A stretch of DNA of 64,000 nucleotides from Hexactinellida sp. DTS-2022 (taxonomy: Eukaryota; Porifera; Hexactinellida): the NCBI GenBank assembly GCA_028753945.1, contig JAPNXP010000002.1, forward strand, positions 7,750,001 through 7,814,000, given 5' to 3'. Positions within the stretch are counted from its first letter, which is position 1, and each line of letters starts with the position of its first letter. Shown piece after piece: positions 27,941 to 47,835 of this stretch. The position numbers and the translations under genes were made by a program. Under the pieces are notes generated by a model that was not told the DNA's origin, made no database searches, and was given only the letters and a program-made list of their open reading frames with translations.

Positions 27941-28545
27941 GTTTGCAGAGGTGCAGTGAAGCACACCACTGTCCTGTATGTCAGCGAGCTGTCCACACAT
28001 TGTGTGGTATTCAAGTAGCCGGCTTCGAATGTTATGGTGCATCAGTGTGGTGCAAGAATTGTTATCTGGGTGAGAGAGAAGATGCTATACACCACAGTAG
28101 AGCCACTGCTAAACGAGGACAAGAGAGGCAAATTAATAGGATGGAAAAACAGTCAGTTAAAAAAGCAAGAGGAACCGACATTGGAGATAACATAATCATA
28201 CCAATCCCTGTTGTCGATAAGAGATCCCTATTTGATCCTCCCAACCTAGCTGGTGTTATTATTAATTAATCAACGGAAGGCTACTACAGATTGGTACACT
28301 AGCAGGGACGCTTGACATAAGTTATTTATCCACAGAAATTGAATTGTCCCACTCAAAATCTTTGCTACCTAAGATGTTCTTGAAACCACTGTGACACTCC
28401 GGCAAGCCATTTTAGCTTCTGTCGGAAAGCACAAATTATATTGTAGTTGCACCAGTGGATGTGGGTCTAACCGTTGCAGACGTCGACGTGCTAAGAACAC
28501 TTGCAACTCTAAGTGTCATCGGAGGTTATCTTGCCATAACAAATA
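27940..28545 (+). pseudogene. C-terminal remnant of an integrase-type transposable-element protein (KRBA2/Ginger-like)
   Basis: A plus-strand frame encodes a zinc cluster CPVCQRAVHTLCG with a later CKNC, a basic linker, and GDNIIIPIPVVDKRSLFDPPN. This combination is what I recall at the C-terminus of proteins annotated as KRAB-A domain-containing 2-like, which derive from integrase-bearing elements. After a gap a cysteine-rich tail is readable at about 28436-28540 (KLYCSCTSGCGSN, then TCNSKCHRRLSCHN). The integrase core is not present. It is clearly a broken remnant. Whether the source was a Ginger-type DNA transposon or an LTR relative cannot be told from this part. Function in life: zinc-binding tail of an integrase. 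Confidence 0.55.
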
Positions 28546-31774: not shown

Positions 31775-33359
31775 GGCCCCTCTTTGGTTAATTTGGTAAT
31801 TGAGATTAGACTGATTCCGTATAGTACACAGTAAAGTATTGGTACATTGAAAATTTCAAGTGAATCTGAGCTCTACTTTTGCTGTTAATACCAGTTTAGT
31901 GCTCAGGAATGTGTGTATCATCATGAAAATGTCAATTTTCAATTGAAAATATATTTACATTTGGTTCAACTATTGCAAATTTGGTCTAAATAGTTTGAAA
32001 CCAAGTCTAAACTGATGAAGACATATGTAATTCGGGAGGATTTTTCAAACTAACCACTAACATACAAACTTTGTGAGTTATAGCCCTTTGAAGTCACATT
32101 TTGAATGCCAATTTTTGCATTATTCGATGTTTTATGTAAATATGCGGTCCAAGTCGAACTTCAAAGATATAGAATTCTGAATTTTTTTATGCTAGAGGTT
32201 AGTTTGAAAAATCCCCCCGAATTACATATGTCCTCGTTAGTTTAGACTTGGTTTCAAACAATTTGGACCAAATTTGCAATAGTTGAACCAAAAATAAATG
32301 GAATTTTAAATTTACTTTTCACACTATTATGAGGGTATTCCGGTCAATATATAGGACAGCAATCTTTAGGAAAATGGTTTCAATTGTGATTCTAATGGGT
32401 TTGCAATATTATATGGATGTGATGGGAAATTTAGTGCTAAGCTCTAGAGTTTATAGTTTTGAAGAAATAAATATGCTAAATCATCAAAAATGGGCACATT
32501 TTATGCCCATATATGGTCCTTTGGAAGATTTTTGCGATTAGGGTCATAAAATGTATTATGGACGAATAGGAAACCGGGTATTGCGAGCATTTTGCACTCA
32601 AATATTTCATTATTGGTCGACGGGTTTCTGAGATTCAATGTAGAGATGTGAAAGGACCACCCAATGAGTTGAAAGGTCAGAAAGTTTAAAATGCTAAAGC
32701 GTTCACAGTTTTCATCCAAATTGTTTGAAACCAAGTGTAAACGATTGAATATATATTTAATATGGGAATGACCCTTGATCTAAACTTTACAATACAAACT
32801 TTCAAAGTTAATGCCCTTTGAAGTCAGACTAGGGACCTTGACAGTCCAAATCTGACTTCAAATGGCTATAACTCGGAACTTAATTTTTGGAATGTTGAAA
32901 ATTTAAGTTTACAAACTAAGTAGATATGCAAATATACTTTTGTATGAATAACAACTATATTGAAAACAAATTGTGGCAGTGCCAGCCTACTAAACTTTCA
33001 TTCCATTTGAAAAAGTCACCCTCCATGATGTCCTTCACATTCCTGGATCTTATAATGGTCGCTACAGCAAAACTATTAGTCAGATTCACCTGAAATTTTC
33101 AATGTGGATTTACTTTCTGGTGTACTATCCAAAAACTATCGAATCTCAATTTATCTGACCAGCATTGTGTGGCAGTAATTTATATTACTCTCAATTTGGC
33201 CATATAACAGACATTCCCAAATTTCAAATTGCTCTAGTGAGTTCAATTGTCCTCAGAATTAAGCCAAATTTTCCTATATTATCCTCCCGGGTATTATAAC
33301 TAATAAAAACGAAATAAACTCAATTATTTAAATAATTCAGAATTAACCCGAGAGGGGCC
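31775..33359. mobile_element. F5 TTAA element, copy A
   Basis: Starts GGCCCCTCTTTGGTTAATTT and ends AACCCGAGAGGGGCC, with TTAA at 31771-31774 and 33360-33363. The two subterminal regions are themselves diverged inverted repeats for several hundred bases. It is 1585 bp, non-coding. Copy A' lies inverted at 34271-39236. Confidence 0.92.
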
Positions 33360-33363
33360 TTAA

Positions 33364-34076
33364 GGATCGACCCACACCTCAATCAACAATGTTATATTAC
33401 TTAATTCCTAATTATATCAGTGAAAGCCTACTCTATACTGCTTACAAATCCACCGTCTAAATTGATTTCGAATAATATTCGCTCGAGTGATTGAGTATAG
33501 TTCCATATTACGTAATATTAAATTCATATATCTGACTGAAAATATATGAGGCACTCTCACAAAGTAACCACACTAGTTCAAGTGTTGATTAAGCTTTATT
33601 TATCCAATACATATACTAGTGTAATACCTTCACCTTTAATATTCAGCAATTTCATGCTTACGAGAAGATTTGTAGTCAGTAAAGTAAAACCAAGGCAATG
33701 ATTAATGATTATTTTGCATTTTTTTGATTCAAATTCTTATAACACTTCTATTGAAGTATTTGAAGCCTTGTTTTTAGGTGAAGGTTGAGTAACAATACTA
33801 TCTAAATAATTCATTTTTCTCAGATCATCAAAAACTCATTAGAATTTTTCTGGAGACGTGTACATGTTGGAGAGTCTTTGCGACGCGAAATAATTTCTTA
33901 AATTTGTACATTTGTATTACGATTCTTTATTTCCAGTTCCATATCTCCTAAAGTATTTAATATTTCTGGATTAAATTTCCAGGGAATATACACAACATAT
34001 AGACCTCTCGAAATAAGCAATAATATACACTTAATCAGTTTCCCGGAAACGCCCTGTTTGAGGTGTGGGTCGAGCC
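33364..34076. mobile_element. F6 small derivative (713 bp)
   Basis: The ends are GGATCGACCCACACCTC and GAGGTGTGGGTCGAGCC, with TTAA at 33360-33363 and 34077-34080. Its left ~430 bp are the inverse of 47400-47831, and its right end is the inverse of 39340-39450, so it is a deletion derivative of the 8.5-kb F6 element. Confidence 0.9.
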
Positions 34077-34145: not shown

Positions 34146-35162
34146 GTCTGATTGCATTCTGCAACCTTTTCATTCCCATTTCATTTTTATAGTATTTCTC
34201 TTAGAATGGGATGGGAATCAAATTTCGTTGTAGCAATAGCAATGAAATTTCATTTTATCAATTAATTTAAGGCCCCTCTCGGGTTAATTTTGAATTATTT
34301 AAATAATTGAGTTTATTTCGTTTTTATTAGTTATAATACCCGGGAGGATAATATAGGAAAATTTTGCTTAATTCTGAGGAGAATGGAACTCAAATGAGCA
34401 ATTTGAAATTGGGGAATGTCTGTTATATGGCTAAATTGAGAGTAAAATAAATTACGGCCACACAATGCTTGTCAGATAAATTGAGATTCGATTGTTTTTG
34501 GATAGTACACCAGAAAGTAAAGCCACATTGAAAATTTCTATGAATCTGACTAATAGTTTTGCTGTAGCGACCATTATAAGATCCAGGAATGTGAAGGACA
34601 TCATGGAGGGTGACTTTTTCAAATGGAATGAAAGTTTAGTAGGCTGGCACTGCCACAATTTGTTTTCAATATAGTTGTTATTCATACAAAAGTATATTTG
34701 CATATCTACTTAGGTTGTAAACCTAAATTTTCAACATTCCAAAAATTAAGTTCCGAGTTATAGTCATTTGAAGTCAGATTTGGACTGTCAAGGTCCCTAG
34801 TCTGACTTCAAAGGGCATTAACTTTGAAAGTTTGTATTGTAAAGTTTAGATCAAGGGTCATTCCCATATTAAATATATATTCAATCGTTTACACTTGGTT
34901 TCAAACAATTTGGATGAAAACTGTGAACGCACAGACTACGTTACTATAGACTATTCACTGATTGATTTTTCCATTACCATGGATTACTTCAAGTCTATTT
35001 TGTAAACCACCCACAATATTTGAATATAAGTTTACTACCATTCAGTCTAGATCAATCTCTTTTCTACACATTCTTTGTGCCTTTCTATTTACCACACCAC
35101 TTACTCTTTTATGCTTCTACTCTTTATTTATCTTTTCTTTCATTTTTATATATACTAGAATC

Positions 35163-39335: not shown

Positions 39336-39667
39336 TTAAGGCTCGACCCACACCTTCAGGTTAAATTTAATGAATTTAAGTTTTCGCGTTTTATTGCGTA
39401 TTTCGAAAGCTCTATATGTTCCGTGTATTCCCTGCAAATTTCATCAAAAAACTCCAAATATTTATTGAAATATGCCACCCTGAATGTCATCATCTCTATT
39501 CTAGATTTAGAATCTCAAAAAACTTTTATCTTCACCATTTTATAGTGTAATTTTGTTTTTTATGTTGATTTATTACTAATATATTAGTAACATTATATTA
39601 TCAACCCATAACAAAATATTTTGTTTTTCTTGTAGAACCACATTATTATATTTCAACTTATTCAAGT

Positions 39668-40735
39668 CGTGACCTTCGATATATAAGGCCTGAGTGCTGG
39701 TTTGAACCATGGATTACTTAAAGTGCATTGAAAAATGGAGAATTGTTCTTTATCCCAATAATTAGCAATGATAGAGCTGAAAAGTGTATTATAACTATAT
39801 AGGAATATGGTACCCAGGTATACATAGCACTCTCCAGAATTGTGATATGTCATCATCTGATGACGTAATGGTAATTTTGGTTGCGAATTATCTTGTTTTT
39901 CTAGCATACTTTTAACATAGTTAAACGCGTTATAAATGTTCAAAATTGGAACATGGTTATACCCATAACTAGTTGAAAAAAATATATCGAAATTATAAAT
40001 GGAATGTTGACACATTCCTCGGTTGCCATGGAAATGTATATTTCCTAAAATGTGTCATAACTCAAAAACTATGAATGTTATGTAAACTAGGCTGGTACTG
40101 ATCTGTCCGGAATAGGTAACTTCCTATTCATTGATAATACATTTTATATGCCTAACTTCAATCATCTTTGAGATAGTGAGTCATTACCTAATAATGAATT
40201 AAGTGTTAATTATGTCATGATCTCAAAAGTTATTGAAGTTAGGCATATAAAATGTATTATCAATGAATAGGAAGTTACCTATTCCGGACAGATCAGTACC
40301 AGCCTAGTTTACATAACATTCATAGTTTTTGAGTTATGACACATTTTAGGAAATATACATTTCCATGGCAACCGAGGAATGTGTCAACATTCCATTTATA
40401 ATTTCGATATATTTTTTTCAACTAGTTATGGGTATAACCATGTTCCAATTTTGAACATTTATAACGCGTTTAACTATGTTAAAAGTATGCTAGAAAAACA
40501 AGATAATTCGCAACCAAAATTACCATTACGTCATCAGATGATGACATATCACAATTCTGGAGGGTGCTATGTATACCTGGATACCATATTCCTATATAGT
40601 TATAATACACTTTTCAGCTCTATCATTGCTAATTATTGGGATAAAGAACAATTCTCCATTTTTCAATGCACTTTAAGTAATCCATGGTACACAAATTTTC
40701 GCTTAGCACTCAGGCCTTATATATCGAAGGTCACG
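39668..40735. mobile_element. Foldback element, P-superfamily-like
   Basis: This is a nearly perfect palindrome: two arms of about 500 bp (CGTGACCTTCGATATATAAG and its inverse at the ends) around a centre near 40200. TSD TTCAAGT is a perfect 7 bp (39661-39667; 40736-40742). The arms share ACCATGGATTACTT with the termini of the P element. The two open frames in the arms (117 and 126 codons) are mirror images with no recognised domain. Confidence 0.9.
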
Positions 40736-42138
40736 TTCAAGTATAGTATATATAGATGAGCTGTTTTCTATTGAAATTAGTACTCTTGCTTTGCCCACCA
40801 ATTTGTATTGTTGCTGGACCGACCAAGAGAATCCACTGGTTACAATAATTTGTGTTCAGTCTAAAAACCACCAAAACTAATAGACCCCTTGACCTTTTTT
40901 CATTTTATTTCCTGCTGACAACTAATTAGAACTATACAATTGAATGGCCAGTCGAGATACTCTGTATAGACCGCCTTCCATTAGTGACAGCGACGACACG
41001 CCACCCGAAACCACCTGCTCACAGATGAGCCTGTCCAGTGTGGGGTCTCCGATGACACCGTCCCTTAGTCAATCCTTAGGGGACTTCACATTCGCGACAC
41101 CGCCGCCAATACCATCTCCGTCGCTGCGAAATTATAAACCGAGGAGGAAAAGATCCCGATTCCACGGAAATCAATTCTCAATGAAGAAAGGGCTCGCTGC
41201 GAAGAAGTTGAGAGTCGGAACAACAACGCCCGAAACAATACACGTTCCGCATAGCTCTAAAGACACCGCAGCATCGCGAAAGTTGGACTTCCCGGATCAC
41301 TCATTTCTACCTGCGATTCAAAATATCAGGGTCCGGAGTTCTGAAGGAAAAGTTGAGGAAGTATATGTTCTTCTAGTGACAGGTAATGTTATTCTAAATG
41401 TCGAGTCTTTTGTTTCAATTCTAGGTGAAGTAGCTGTGTGCAGGAATTGTCAACTTGGTACATTAGAGTTGTATCAGAAACCATACCACCTGTCCTGTGC
41501 CACGCAGCTCATGTTCCGCTGTAAACAGTGTCTTACCACCCGAACATTTTGGAGCGTGAGCGGCTACTTCAGGTCAAGTATTGAGCTCGGAGAGAAGAAG
41601 ATATCCAGACGCAATGATATTATGTACAGCAGTGTCTTGGGAGGTCGACTTTGTGGAATTGGAGAACCCAACCTCCGTTTGTACCACGCCTGCATGAACT
41701 TGCCACCGCCACCAACAGGTCCCTACTTCCAAAGAATACAGAAAGATCTGCTAATTGCTAGCGAGTATGTTTCCAACAATACCATGATGCAAGCGAAGAT
41801 CGGGTTAGAAACAATCCTTGGCATCAATCCCCTAACCAACTGTGTGCACAGTGTGGTCTCCTATGACGGCGCCTACCAGATCAGGTCGAAGAAAGGCGGA
41901 GGAGGTTACAGCCCGTACTGCTTCGCTGCAGCTATTTCAGTAGACACCGCGAAGGTAGTAACTTATGATGTAGCGTGCAACACCTGCAGACAGTGCAACA
42001 TGTATGCCAGTAAATTGAGAGATAACGAGATCACAGAAGAAGAACATCACAACTGGCATATTGAACACAAAATCACTTGTCCTGCCAAATATTCTGAGTA
42101 CGCGTCCGTTCACATAGAATCACTCTTAGCGCCTCTCG

Positions 42139-43790
42139 CAGTGCTGCCAAGTGAGTTCAGATAAATTCCTGGAGATTTACCATAAAATTTACGGAGAATG
42201 AAATTTTTTTACGGAGCATACTAAAATTCCCTCTGCGACCAAAAAGTTCTTAATTTGCTTTTCAAAAATATAAAGTAACTATTTGTATGAATAATCATTT
42301 ATAAAAGGTAGATATCAGTGATGTGCTCCGTTACTAGTAACGGAGTAACGGTAACGGTAACGGTAACGGAAAAAGTAACGGTAACGGAAGAAAAAAAGTA
42401 ACGGTAACGGAAAAAAGTAACGGTAACGGAGGAAAAAAAGTAACGGTAACGGAAAAAAGTAACGGTAACGGAAGTAAAAGTAACGGTAACGGAAAAAAGT
42501 AACGGTAAAGGAAGAAAAGAAGTAACGGTAACGGGAGAAAAAAGTGTAAGGAAATCATTTACATTTATCTTTATTCAGTCACTCTTACCATTCCATTACC
42601 GTTGCTCTCTTACCGTTCCTATGTTAAACTTTTCCATTACCGTTACTCAGTTACTCCATTATTCCGTTACTCCGTTATTCCGTTACTCCGTTATTCCGTT
42701 ATTCCGTTACTCCGTTATTCCGTTACTTTTAATTAATTACTGTTATCTTTAATTACATTACCGCACTGTTACATCGTTATCTTTAGTCCGTTACTTTGTT
42801 ACTTTTAATCAGTTACCGTCCGTTACATTAAGCTAAAGGTAACTGATTGAATGTAACGGCTTAACGGTAACGGAAGAAATAAAGTAATCGTAACGGGGGG
42901 AAAAAAGTAACGGTAACGGAAGAGTTAAAGTAACGGTAACGGAAGAAATAAAGTAACGGTAACGGAGTAACGGTAACGGAAGAAATAAAGTAACGGTAAC
43001 GGAGTAACGGTAACGGAAGAAATAAAGTAACGGTAACGGAGTAACGGTAACGGAAGAAATAAAGTAACGGTAACGGAGTAACGGTAACGGAAGAAATAAA
43101 GTAACGGTAACGGAGTAACGGTAACGGAAGAAATAAAGTAACGGTAACGGAGTAACGGTAACGGAAGAATTAAAGTAACGGTAACGGAGTAACGGAGTAA
43201 CGGAAGATTTAGTAACGGAGCACATCACTGGTAGATATATGGACGCTTTCGCACATGTAAAAAATAAGATATACTAACTAGTATCATGTATCAAACTATC
43301 AAAGTAATATTTAATTTTGCTAATTTTTATTGTGAAACTGTTTTAAATCAAAGTATTCTTCGATAGGAATAATTCATCACTATGTTATTATTTAACATAG
43401 TAATATAAAACAAAAATAATGATATGGTGGTTCACAAGTAACAATAAAACGCATTTATATTGTTATGAAAAATTATATTAACCTGAACAAACAATTGACC
43501 AAATGAAGTAGAGTTAATTATAGAATTTGAATAAACAATAAACAAATAAGAATAACATTGAATATTAATTATCATAAGCGACTACTTTACTTTCGTCTGC
43601 ATGGCTGGTCTATAGCACTAAAATAGATCCAGGTTAACTAAGTTGTACTAAACTATAACAATATGTTAAACAAAAAGTATTAATATATATTTCGCTAGAA
43701 ATACGTAGAAATAAGTTTTCATACGTAGACACGTAGATAGGGGTCATATTTACGTAGTCTACGTAAATTTACGGAGACTTGGCAGCACTG
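42139..43790. mobile_element. hAT element in the transposase gene (first)
   Basis: The ends are CAGTGCTGCCAAGT and ACTTGGCAGCACTG; the perfect 8-bp TSD is GCCTCTCG (42131-42138; 43791-43798). It is 1652 bp, of which 915 bp is a second hAT element. No transposase. Confidence 0.95.
42316..43230. mobile_element. hAT element made of GTAACGG satellite, nested in the previous one
   Basis: The ends are CAGTGATGTGCTCCGTTAC and its inverse; the perfect TSD is GTAGATAT (42308-42315; 43231-43238). Almost the whole interior is GTAACGG-based repeat: plus orientation at 42330-42545, inverse at 42590-42830, plus again at 42840-43215. The last part is about 6.5 copies of a 37-bp unit. Open frames on the minus strand are satellite translation. 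Confidence 0.95.
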
Positions 43791-44472
43791 GCCTCTCGTA
43801 GTACAACAGGCATATGACCGAGGAATAATATTCAGTGGGGTAGTTTCTGACGGGGACAATAAGACAGATGCAGCACTGAAGGATGCAGATATTTATAACA
43901 GCTTGGGATTTGACATGGAGATCGGGGGACTGGAGTGTCTTAGTCATGTCCTAAAGAGGATGAAGACCAACCTGTGCAGGGCCGGATTACGACTGTGCGG
44001 GGCCTTAAGCCATACATTTTTGGGGGGCCCCTAAGACTAAATACATATTAATGAAAGTAAATTTTTTATGTATTATTTTCAAAGATACATGAATCATTAC
44101 ATATCCATAAAATCAACTTTTGTCAAGCTTTTATTCTTGCTAAGTCATCAATGATATCCAAGCGATGACTGCATGTCTAACTAGTTAAACTTATATTATG
44201 TACTATACATAATACGTTTCCACTTCGAGACATAAATATCAAACATGCAGATTACATTAATAATATAATTCACGAAATGTCAACCCAGTCAAAGTTTCTA
44301 AACGAAAAATATCATTTAATAATTTAGATGTCAATCTAACTTCTATTACAAGGTAATATTTTGTCTAGAAATAGGTTCTCAACATTAGTAGTCCAACAGT
44401 GTAGAACTTCAAAGAACACAACATATATTTTAAAAGGTATAATACTTATTACAAATAAGTGCTCATTGAAAA

Positions 44473-44590
44473 GATCCAAATTTGCAGCCTGTGCCGACGC
44501 ATGTTCCTTTTGTGGCACTATATTTTGTTGGTGGTTTATTGATAGTGCCTCCAAAGGAACATGCTGTCGGCACAGGCTGCAATTTTGGAT
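44473..44590. repeat. Long hairpin, copy 2
   Basis: Same structure as 8159-8275: arms with TTGCAGCCTGTGCCGACGCA and CAAAGGAACATGCTGTCGGC facing each other. It lies inside the second hAT element. Confidence 0.85.
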
Positions 44591-44981
44591 TTTTTTTGCC
44601 ATGTCATGAACGCGTCAAGGTGTTTAGTTAGGCTCATCTAACAAGTTGTTACAGGACAAAGGAAGGATTGATAAATTTGAAGTTTGTTTCTATCTTAAAC
44701 CATCTTGAGTATATTGCCTTTCATTAATTATGTAAAGATAACTAATAATATTAATAGTTAACTATTTTAGCAATGTTATCCACGTTGTGTTGAGTTGAGT
44801 CAACAAATTCCTCATGTTATTTATTATAATTCTATCCATTGTATAACATTTTGAAAGGTGTTAAAAATGTGTTAATCAAAAATCGTAACGGTCATTCGCA
44901 CCTACATGCCAAGTTTCAGTTCATCATCTATAAAGCTCTGGCCAGGGCACCGTCTACGGAGAAAAAAATATAAATATAAGT

Positions 44982-45165
44982 AATAAAGGCAGTGATTTCA
45001 ATACTGGGCCACTATACTATAGTATAGTCGGTACAGTAAAATAAAGGCAATCATTTCAATACTGGGCCACTATAGTATAGCATAGTCGGCACAGTAAAAT
45101 AAAGGCAGTGATTTCAAACTGGGCCACTATACTATAGTATAGTCAGCACAGTAAAACGTATTTAT
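44982..45165. repeat. 58-bp tandem repeat, three units
   Basis: Unit: TAAAGGCAGTGATTTCAA, ACTGGGCCACTATACTATAG, TATAGTCGGCACAGTAAAA. Each contains the palindrome CTATACTATAGTATAG. A single unit is at 9430-9490. Confidence 0.85.
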
Positions 45166-46533
45166 ACAACTTAGCGGGAGTGAACTATGAATAAATAAAG
45201 GTTGTATGAGGTACAATCTTATCAATGTTATAAAAATATATATTGAAATTGGTTGCATTCTAAATAGTAGAAATTTGCATGCATCAATATCAATTTATAA
45301 ATTAAAATGAGTACCACTATATCCGATAATAACGGACCCAATATAAATATTAGCATCCTTGCTAGACACGATGAGTCCATCTGCCCAATACATGAAGCCT
45401 AATTTTTAATAATTTTTCTAAAAATTCACCTATACGCCCGGAGCCGCTACAAGCGCGGGGCCCCCCAAAAGCGCGGGGTCCTAGGCCATGGCCTACTTGG
45501 CCTATGCGGTAATCCGGCCCTGAACCTGTGTAAGAAACAAGAAGTGGTGCTGAAAGATGCGAGAACTTCATAGAAAGTCTATACTAAAGAGCTGATAAAG
45601 AAAGGCAAGAGTAAGAAAGAGGCTGCTAAATTACTATCAAAGGATTATCAGGGAAGTTTACGAAGAGTTTCAAAGAGCAGGGAAAGTTGGAAGAGTTCTG
45701 AGACATCCGTTGAAATCAAACATCTTTCTGAAGCGATGTGCGGACAGATAGCAAGCTATTATCGTCTTGCTGTCCAACGGAACAAGGGAGACACCGACGC
45801 CATAATAAAGGCAGTGAAAGCTATACCTTACCACCTAGGGGCTAACGACACCAACGCAGTAGAATACCACCGATACTGCCCCTTTGAACAAGACAGCTGG
45901 TGCCAATACCAATCGGCAATATTTGACAAGAAGCCTCCTCCCCACCATCCTAATTATCTATCTGAGGAGGCTGTAAACATTGTGTTGGAACTCTATGAAG
46001 AATTCAAGCTGACCACACCGGAGTTCATAGACAAAATAAAATCTTCCCTGACTTCCAATAACAATGAAGCAATTCACAGCGTGCTCTTTGACACTGTACC
46101 CAAGAAAGAAAACATTGGCAAAGAACTGATGTTATTGGGAGCTGCACTCTCTGTCATACTATTCAACGAGGGATATCAAGGAATCAAGAGAGTATTCGAG
46201 ACATGCGGAATAACACCTGGGGACTATTTGTCGGAGACCTTTAGCAATCTTGATAAGGAGAGAATAGTTCGTAGAAAATATCCTCCTCAGTCAACAGCGA
46301 AAGTTTGCCAAAAAGCAGCGAAGGGGAAAGAAAGTGAAGAGCCAGATTAGAAGACATGGGTTAGGCTATGGCTCCGGGAAGTACACATCAGCACAACCTG
46401 ATTTAGAGACCGAAGCTGAAGATGTGACACCTGCCCCGACATCAAGCACAGCACCCCATACTGATGTAAACACAGACAGTAATGAAGAAGACCGTCAATC
46501 TCCAATAACAACATTAGCTGAAGAAGAATCTGA

Positions 46534-46720
46534 CATCTGTGAGATCTGTGTTTATACCGAGGAAGAAGGTCTTGTAGGTATCGGACTCGGTATACCTTTG
46601 CCACCCGAAGATTTACTATGGGTACAATGCGAAGACTGTGCGAAGTGGTATCACCTCCTGTGCCTGGGAATGGAAAAGGAAGATCTGCCAGCAGGTGACT
46701 GGAGATGTGGTAAGTGTTAG
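46534..46720 (+). other. PHD finger at the end of the F6 transposase
   Basis: The spacing CEIC, then WVQCEDCAKWYHLLC, then WRCGKC gives the Cys4-His-Cys3 pattern of a PHD finger, including the tryptophan before the third cysteine. The protein stops right after the last cysteine. PHD fingers read histone H3 tails in general; a role in choosing chromatin targets is only inferred. An acidic, Thr/Ser-rich linker precedes it. Confidence 0.88.
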
Positions 46721-47310
46721 TTCAGTATATGTATATGTTTAGTGTAGTATTGTAACAAAAAAAACAAAAAAAATTATTATAAAACAAAAAACCCACAAAA
46801 AAATAACAAAAAAATTGAAATTCATAAAAAAAAATACTTATATAAACCTTAGAATGTATTATTCAGTGTTTCTTCATTAGTATAGTCTAATTAGTTCCTA
46901 ATCATATAAACTTCTCCGTATTGTCAATCATTTCCTCCCTTTCACATATCAGTTTATTTTTATCAATTTATTTATTCTTATATATATTCATGCTATTTTC
47001 TATAGATATTTATCTATTTCATTTATCCTATTATTCATTAGATTGTTGTATTTATATTCATTCAATTATTATAAATGTTAGTAATTACATTTTTCGTGTT
47101 TGTATGTGTGTACGTATGTCTTGTCTTTCTCTAGGTATAGTTCTAATCCGAACTACTCATGAGACTTATGGAGAGTCGAAACCTAGAAAATTTTATAATA
47201 TTGCTTTTAAATTATTGTATACACCCTCTAGAAAACGTTAGAATTGATTCAAACATCAAAACAATTATTTTATAATTTTTTATTTTTTTGATTTTTCAAA
47301 TTATTTTGTT
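46721..47310. other. A-rich and T-rich low-complexity tail of F6
   Basis: 46750-46850 is A-rich with AAAACAAAAAA words directly after the transposase stop, a possible 3' UTR. 46920-47140 is TTTATTTAT-like low complexity; the long open frame there reflects composition. Confidence 0.5.
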
Positions 47311-47835
47311 TTGACAGTCGAAACGTGCCAACATGTACACGCATTCCAAAAAAAGTTTGCTAGTATTTGATGATTTGAAAATTCTGCATTATTTAGATAG
47401 TACTGTTAAATAACCTCCACCTAAAAACAACGCTTCAAATACTTCTATTGATGTGTTATAAGTATTTGAACCACAAAATGCAAAATAATCATGAATAATT
47501 GCCTTGGATTCACTTTACTGACTACAAATTTTCTCGTAAGCATGAAATTGCTGAATATTAAAGGTGAAGGTGTTACACTAGTATATGTATAGAATAAATA
47601 AAGCTTAATCAGCACTTGAACTAGTGTGGTTATTTTGAAAAAATGTTTACCGTAAATTCAGTCGGGTATAGGAATTTAATATTACGCAATATGGAACTAT
47701 AATCAATCACTCGAGCGAATATTATTCGAATTCAATTTTGATTGCAGATTTATGTAGCCTATAGATATGGCTAAAACTGATATATGTTTGGATTTGAAGG
47801 GGACGTTATTAGTGAAGGTGTGGGTCGAGCCTTAT

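Follow-up and report, generated by a model that had tools for sequence, protein, structure and literature searches.

The stretch of DNA analysed here, called the window below, comprises 64,000 nucleotides of the sponge Hexactinellida sp. DTS-2022 (GenBank assembly GCA_028753945.1, contig JAPNXP010000002.1, positions 7,750,001 to 7,814,000). On its forward strand, at 39340-47831, lies a transposable element of 8,492 bp as found. Two perfectly matching terminal inverted repeats (TIRs) of 19 bp bound the element, the left one (39340-39358, + strand) starting with 5'-GG and the right one (47813-47831, - strand) ending in CC-3'. The target duplication outside them reads TTAA on the left (39336-39339) and TTAT on the right (47832-47835), a difference of one base. 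Between the ends lies, in pieces, a gene for a DDE transposase whose last domain is a PHD finger. We read the element as a Kolobok-type DNA transposon that moved by cut and paste, had a PHD-tailed transposase and survives here as a dead copy, and put the probability of this reading at roughly 0.7.

The 15-bp end sequence GGCTCGACCCACACC occurs exactly at 39340-39354 (+) and 47817-47831 (-). An earlier reading of the same DNA, made from its letters only (the sequence-only reading), had noted that these ends recur in a 713-bp element at 33364-34076, and this holds, with one mismatch at the left end of the shorter element and an exact match at its right end. In total, the window contains 5 matches to GGCTCGACCCACACC at ≤3 mismatches versus 0.27 expected; the fifth, at 28458 with 3 mismatches, is not a real end of either element. 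Genome-wide searches, which here and below covered 112 Mb in 18 contigs, returned 177 matches at ≤1 mismatch versus 1 for the reversed pattern used as a control.

The sequence-only reading took the whole span for an 8.5-kb TTAA element. Its identical ends and TTAA/TTAT flanks stand, but the element proper measures only ~4.2 kb. A 4,207-bp copy elsewhere (L061; C11:6799808-6804014) has both ends and the same transposase gene, and the window element aligns with it in four collinear blocks, at 39340-39667 (82% identity), 40735-42142 (87%), 43791-43976 (96%) and 45523-47834 (89%). The gaps between these blocks are filled by insertions A to D, all with inverted ends of their own and target site duplications (TSDs) of 7-8 bp. 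Insertion A (39668-40734) is a near-perfect palindromic element with the TSD TTCAAGT. Insertion B (42139-43790) has the TIR CAGTGCTGCCAAGT and the 8-bp TSD GCCTCTCG, and encloses insertion C (42316-43230; TIR CAGTGATGTGCTCCGTTACTA, 8-bp TSD GTAGATAT), in which GTAACG-type tandem repeats are abundant. Insertion D (43977-45522) has the TIR CAGGGCCGGATTAC and the 8-bp TSD AACCTGTG. A script identified the TSDs of B and D; for A and C they were read by eye in the flanking sequence. The 8.5-kb span is a ~4.2-kb element inflated by four later, partly nested transposon insertions. Two of them cut the coding sequence, and a frameshift separates a frame of 258 amino acids (aa) from the PHD-bearing 150-aa frame; the window copy is therefore dead.

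Because L061 is both coding and bounded by the same TIRs, the transposase belongs to these ends, as had been proposed. In two further copies (L062 and L063), collinearity extends from the gene as far as this right end, interrupted by one insertion close to it. The sequence-only reading had allowed that other copies with these ends might hold an unrelated transposase, or that the gene might have closer TIRs of its own. Neither proved so: L061 carries the same transposase, and the window element is collinear with it to both termini. That the Mutator-like gene is an unrelated element nested in the TTAA element, with its own closer ends, might be thought plausible where four other insertions do sit within the same element. 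L061 rules this candidate out, since within its 4,207 bp the same gene is collinear out to this very pair of ends, and the collinearity of L062 and L063 speaks against it as well; we give it next to no weight. L061 contains no frame ≥150 aa beyond the transposase, so that an accessory nuclease or helicase of this length is absent. No intact copy turned up among the five inspected in the window element's subfamily. A frameshift splits the gene of L061 into frames of 325 and 553 aa, L062 and L063 share identical broken frames of 496 and 235 aa, and in an 83% relative (L081) 772 aa are open while the PHD finger lies in a different frame.

We analysed the target site in 29 end-paired copies, 27 elsewhere and 2 in the window, paired by their spacing among the listed end matches and not by their flanks. 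Exact 4-bp duplications flank 19 of them, 17 with TTAA on both sides and two others with TTAT and ATAA. TTAA lies directly outside 73 exact ends genome-wide and, among the exact ends listed, outside 58 of 100, against a background of 0.9% of window positions. The 4-bp TTAA duplication and the 5'-RR...YY-3' termini of Kolobok elements are both found, the latter as GG...CC in the window element. Several copies depart from this pattern and weigh against it. Ten of the 29 pairs have no exact 4-bp duplication, including the window element (TTAA/TTAT) and L061. One pair (L072; C11:6105657-6106545) shows an exact 10-bp duplication, TTAATATCTC, which begins with TTAA, and two others show an 8-bp duplication with one mismatch (L017) and a 19-bp duplication with two mismatches (L019). 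The 8-11 bp TSDs of Mutator-like elements (MULEs) are represented among the 29 pairs by one exact 10-bp and one near 8-bp case, and the 9-bp TSD of Rehavkus elements was not found among them. We also considered long duplications as a second target mode and rejected it; pairs with ≥8 bp at ≤1 mismatch (2 of 29, versus 0.6% in shuffles) are too few.

The transposase is preserved in the window in three pieces upstream of the PHD finger. Piece 1 (40944-42138, +) contains the ATG, a C4 knuckle, the catalytic D1 (codon 41865-41867) and a CCHC zinc finger, and its 406-aa frame matches the Pfam family PF20700, 'Mutator-like transposase', at E=3.8e-20. Piece 2 (43791-43976, +), which coincides with the 96% block of L061, contains the catalytic D2 (SDGD) and a CxxH motif (CLSH). 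Piece 3 (45523-46350, +; open frame 45574-46350) contains an H-H-C-C zinc finger before the catalytic E (NNNEAIHS). The PF20700 matches of the latter two pieces (E=3.8e-4 and E=0.0018) are under the curated cut-off. Across 19 aligned proteins, D1, the CCHC finger after it, D2, CxxH and the H-H-C-C finger before E are present without exception; the catalytic E is found in 17, and the two proteins that lack it are truncated. The group therefore combines a DDE triad and C/DxxH between D2 and E with a zinc finger between CxxH and E. In PMC9587614 (Kojima and Bao), D-D-E, CxxH and a zinc finger between CxxH and E are given as Kolobok features, and a CCHC finger after D1 is described from some Kolobok lineages (KolobokP/E/D/5). 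According to the same paper, MuDR, P and hAT have no such finger between D2 and E; it does not mention Rehavkus.

The Pfam label itself might suggest a MULE. However, the MULE domain PF10551, with at least 150 places in the genome, and PF20700, with at least 116, mark different loci: none of the 150 PF10551 places listed overlaps the 116 PF20700 places listed, and just one lies within 5 kb. PF10551 also has no match in the window transposase pieces, and we rejected a MULE identity by Pfam on both counts. At E≤0.1, Pfam likewise gave no piggyBac model for the window pieces, and a search of viral contigs for relatives gave no match. The sequence-only reading had offered a choice between a Kolobok transposase with a superficial likeness to Mutator and a Mutator-like enzyme that uses TTAA. 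The TTAA duplications, the GG...CC termini, the zinc-finger signature and the missing MULE match support the first; on these grounds we assign the element to a putative Kolobok type and not to Mutator. Some observations pull the other way. No THAP match was found in four window pieces and ten relatives, and the zinc finger is of H-H-C-C type, not H2CH as in Xenopus. THAP is usual for (Xenopus) Kolobok according to PMC6004289; the Kolobok definition in PMC9587614 does not include it. The family name Kolobok is here based on the signature, the duplication and the termini and not on phylogenetic placement among reference proteins. We note in addition a PF20700 match at C1:15616617-15617675 within an uninterrupted 1,692-aa frame, double the usual length, which is possibly a fusion or a host gene.

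At the very end of the protein, where the sequence-only reading had placed it, lies a C4HC3 PHD finger (46538-46717, +; PF00628 E=1.6e-8) with all eight zinc ligands present, followed by the stop codon TAG at 46718. The finger recurs in relatives. A PHD match lies on the same strand, 547-1,122 bp downstream, at 23 of 111 merged PF20700 loci, versus 2 in three control arrangements; the 23 are a lower bound, and the window copy is left out of them, its insertions pushing the PHD finger past the distance limit. A profile built from 13 tails detects the finger in 33 of 45 locus records and in 0 shuffled translations. With records of one place merged and the window copy added, 29 of 39 distinct loci have it. 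In a motif search, 9 of 15 loci showed the finger, and inspection of C-termini together with motif and profile searches added L039, L045, L047, L055, L059 and L090, so that labelling the tree with the finger in 11 of 19 rows, and with three changes, understates its presence. In L040, L043, L049, L086, L087, L091 and others the finger lies within a single open frame. Because it is present on both sides of the deepest split of the tree (support 100/100), the PHD finger is an old component, common among the transposases of this group in the genome, and not a recent capture.

The finger was not found in 10 of the 39 loci (L036, L038, L046, L050, L051, L052, L053, L056, L057 and L089), which counts against its being a general feature of the group. 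L089 is a near-identical sibling of the PHD-bearing L090. At most of the others the DNA read extends just 1.5 kb past the PF20700 match, and absence there may reflect either loss or lack of reach. L053 and L057 make up a separate clade that may lack the finger. These absences are one reason to consider the finger a passenger without function. A second is the strength of selection, since the ratio of nonsynonymous to synonymous divergence (dN/dS) of the PHD tail is 0.30-0.44 between subfamilies (five comparisons with dS>0, the sixth having dS 0), a weaker constraint than that on the first transposase piece (0.13-0.22 in five comparisons). For this piece, the window copy and L063, a near-identical pair in which both are decaying, give 1.76. 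The E region lies at 0.14-0.58. Between the window element and L061, dN≥dS in 23 of 300 bootstraps of the PHD tail, and constraint is not clear in this pair. Nevertheless, dN is below dS between subfamilies, with dN≥dS in only 0, 1 and 3 of 300 bootstraps in the three comparisons with L081. Furthermore, seven of the eight zinc ligands are invariant over tails that are 25-85% identical to that of the window, the eighth being lost in L061 only. We thus consider a functionless passenger quite improbable.

Sister families with the PHD finger show the same target preference. In one family, with a 798-aa transposase, the TIR CGCTACCTACGACTACT and three intact, near-identical copies in the genome, TTAA stands beside 45 of 48 exact ends. 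Two of the three other ends belong to one copy (C13:3223178-3224839) with TTAG on both sides, which shows that the four bases are duplicated and lie outside the repeat. The remaining end comes from a copy flanked by TTAA at one end and by TTAG at the other. The termini of this family are CG...CG, not RR...YY. A second family, with an 802-aa transposase (L087/L088), starts with GGG directly after TTAA at two separate sites, its right end not being reached. Families with a PHD finger thus make 4-base duplications on either side of the deepest split.

The 798-aa family also has shortened relatives. A 297-aa frame corresponding to residues 505-798 of the transposase occurs at 15 places (e.g., C11:5148160-5149822 and C1:2102563-2104226), 99-100% identical and stop-free in 14 of the 15. 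By their coordinates, 13 of the 15 lie in ~1.66-kb elements with the TIRs of the 798-aa family. These frames keep the H-H-C-C finger, the catalytic E and the PHD finger and have lost D1 and D2, and in this they recall the KP repressor of the P element; the copies are so young that an open frame by itself proves nothing. Separately, a PF20700 family with an 827-aa protein is 100% identical over >5.3 kb at three places on three contigs (L082, C11:6364100-6369400; L083, C12:1550000-1555500; L084, C18:4403900-4409500), with no end seen inside, and represents either a longer young element or recent duplications.

The presence of a PHD finger brings Rehavkus into consideration, which PMC6446971 describes as a PHD-bearing MULE outgroup with arthropod and annelid hosts and a 9-bp TSD. 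The transposase could be Rehavkus/Mutator by descent and have switched to a 4-bp TTAA target, in which case 'Kolobok' would tell how it works and not what it is. The PHD finger on record for Rehavkus and found here, the Mutator-like name given by Pfam and the occasional longer duplications of 10 and ~8 bp all fit such a descent. The 4-bp duplications do not, made as they are by two PHD-bearing families that the deepest split separates, and neither do the 19-bp TIRs of L061, compared with 26-400 bp in Rehavkus. The minisatellite that precedes the 3' TIR in Rehavkus was not found by Tandem Repeats Finder within L061 309-4515. The zinc finger between CxxH and E points the same way, being missing from MuDR, P and hAT according to PMC9587614, which is silent on Rehavkus. 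We consider Rehavkus/Mutator descent unlikely and retain the Kolobok-type assignment.

What the PHD finger binds can be approached from its residues. Tryptophans occupy two cage positions in 11 and 10 of the 13 tails, respectively; tryptophans at these two places presumably form a cage for histone H3 trimethylated at lysine 4 (H3K4me3), the alignments showing the residues alone. The PDB relatives of the PHD profile include fingers of KDM7-type proteins, TAF3 and BPTF, all of which read histone H3. The net charge of the tail is -9 in the window element and negative in 12 of the 13 tails. Against this, L039, L040, L045 and L092 are without one or both of the cage-position tryptophans, and the two-tryptophan cages are no more than a lead.

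TTAA transposases of the piggyBac type offer a precedent for either of two functions. According to PMC8086355, Pgm and Tpb2, both derived from piggyBac, make contact with histone H3 through their C-terminal domains, and Tpb2 was at one time proposed to have a PHD fold. In piggyBac itself, the cysteine-rich domain at the C-terminus binds DNA and has a canonical cross-brace fold, unlike that of Pgm; the paper ties positive surface to DNA binding and negative surface to histone binding. Because piggyBac's own domain, also at the C-terminus of a TTAA transposase, binds DNA, the main rival to a histone function is that the PHD finger binds the element's own DNA ends and has no histone role. This rival is live, although we consider it rather unlikely given the negative net charge noted above and the retention, in most tails, of cage-position tryptophans that DNA binding would not need. 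The cage tryptophans, the negative charge, the PDB relatives and the Pgm/Tpb2 precedent lead us to prefer, tentatively and at somewhat less than even odds, that the PHD finger binds histones, with H3 as the likely partner.

In the mechanism that we propose, a DDE transposase of about 850 codons, with no intron seen, would bind the 19-bp ends, excise the element and join it to a 4-bp staggered target, normally TTAA, from which the TTAA duplication would result. Cut and paste at TTAA is what the known chemistry of DDE enzymes, together with the anatomy of the element, leads one to expect. The PHD finger would most likely contact the histone H3 tail (perhaps methylated K4) and might thereby help bring the transposition complex to chromatin, so that tethering and targeting may both be among its roles.

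Non-coding relatives share the ends of the element. The 713-bp miniature inverted-repeat transposable element (MITE) at 33364-34076 (-), with TTAA on both sides, had been taken for a deletion derivative of the window element. Its right end shares ~510 bp with the window element at 82% identity, its left end just 84 nt at 77%, and it is 76% identical to the last 398 bp of the L061 element; it is a relative and not a direct deletion product of the window copy. Among the non-coding copies compared with L061, all 18 share the right end (170-400 bp, 76-88%), and most also a short left stretch. When the two flanks of the MITE were joined as an empty-site query, 40 of 42 matches, two of them within the window, covered the query from its start to its TTAA or ≤4 bases beyond. 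The sequence to the left of the MITE is thus the terminus of a different TTAA repeat, and the query says nothing about empty sites. The MITE is inserted exactly at the TTAA that ends this repeat (CCCGAGAGGGGCC followed by TTAA), which is found at 40 genome places, two of them here (33340-33363 and 34267-34290), and is probably a further TTAA family with GG...CC ends. A comparable arrangement is seen at L062 75-108 (C11:9802374-9802407), where two elements with GGCTCGACCCACACC-type ends abut on one shared TTAA, as if one element had inserted at the other's target duplication.

A PHD finger in Kolobok was not reported in the literature that we searched, most subscription journals and Repbase lying outside the search. 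Already known are the PHD finger of Rehavkus (PMC6446971) and the PHD-like C-terminal domains of piggyBac-type TTAA transposases (PMC8086355). In a bolder reading, which we regard as doubtful, PHD-Kolobok elements would be an unrecorded major lineage whose transposase has ended in the finger from the root of the lineage onwards and selects TTAA sites by reading H3 marks, as a DNA-transposon counterpart of chromodomain integrases, and Rehavkus and the TTAA elements would be one stock with changed stagger length. The choice of chromatin by DNA transposons is largely open, and a PHD-tailed group with intact 798-aa copies makes the question testable. The findings also bear on annotation: PF20700, under the name 'Mutator-like transposase', labels TTAA elements with a Kolobok signature, and annotations by that name may misfile the superfamily.

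In comparison with known systems, the element shares with MULEs a DDE transposase with C/DxxH and the Pfam label, and differs from them in that PMC6446971 and PMC13359780 give MULEs 8-11 bp TSDs, PF10551 and usually long TIRs. With Rehavkus it shares a PHD finger in a MULE-related transposase, whereas the TSD of 9 bp, the longer TIRs and the minisatellite described there (PMC6446971 and PMC10218199) are replaced here by 4-bp TTAA, 19-bp TIRs and no minisatellite. piggyBac, Pgm and Tpb2 (PMC8086355) resemble it in their TTAA target and in having a zinc-binding domain at the C-terminus; the element gives no match to a piggyBac model, and the Pgm domain is not a canonical PHD finger. From Kolobok, the element is set apart by its C-terminal PHD finger (the word PHD occurs 0 times in PMC9587614) and by THAP, usual there and not found here. 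Set against the same sources (PMC9587614 and PMC6004289), it has in common with Kolobok the 4-bp TTAA duplication, the RR...YY termini, D-D-E with CxxH, and both zinc fingers.

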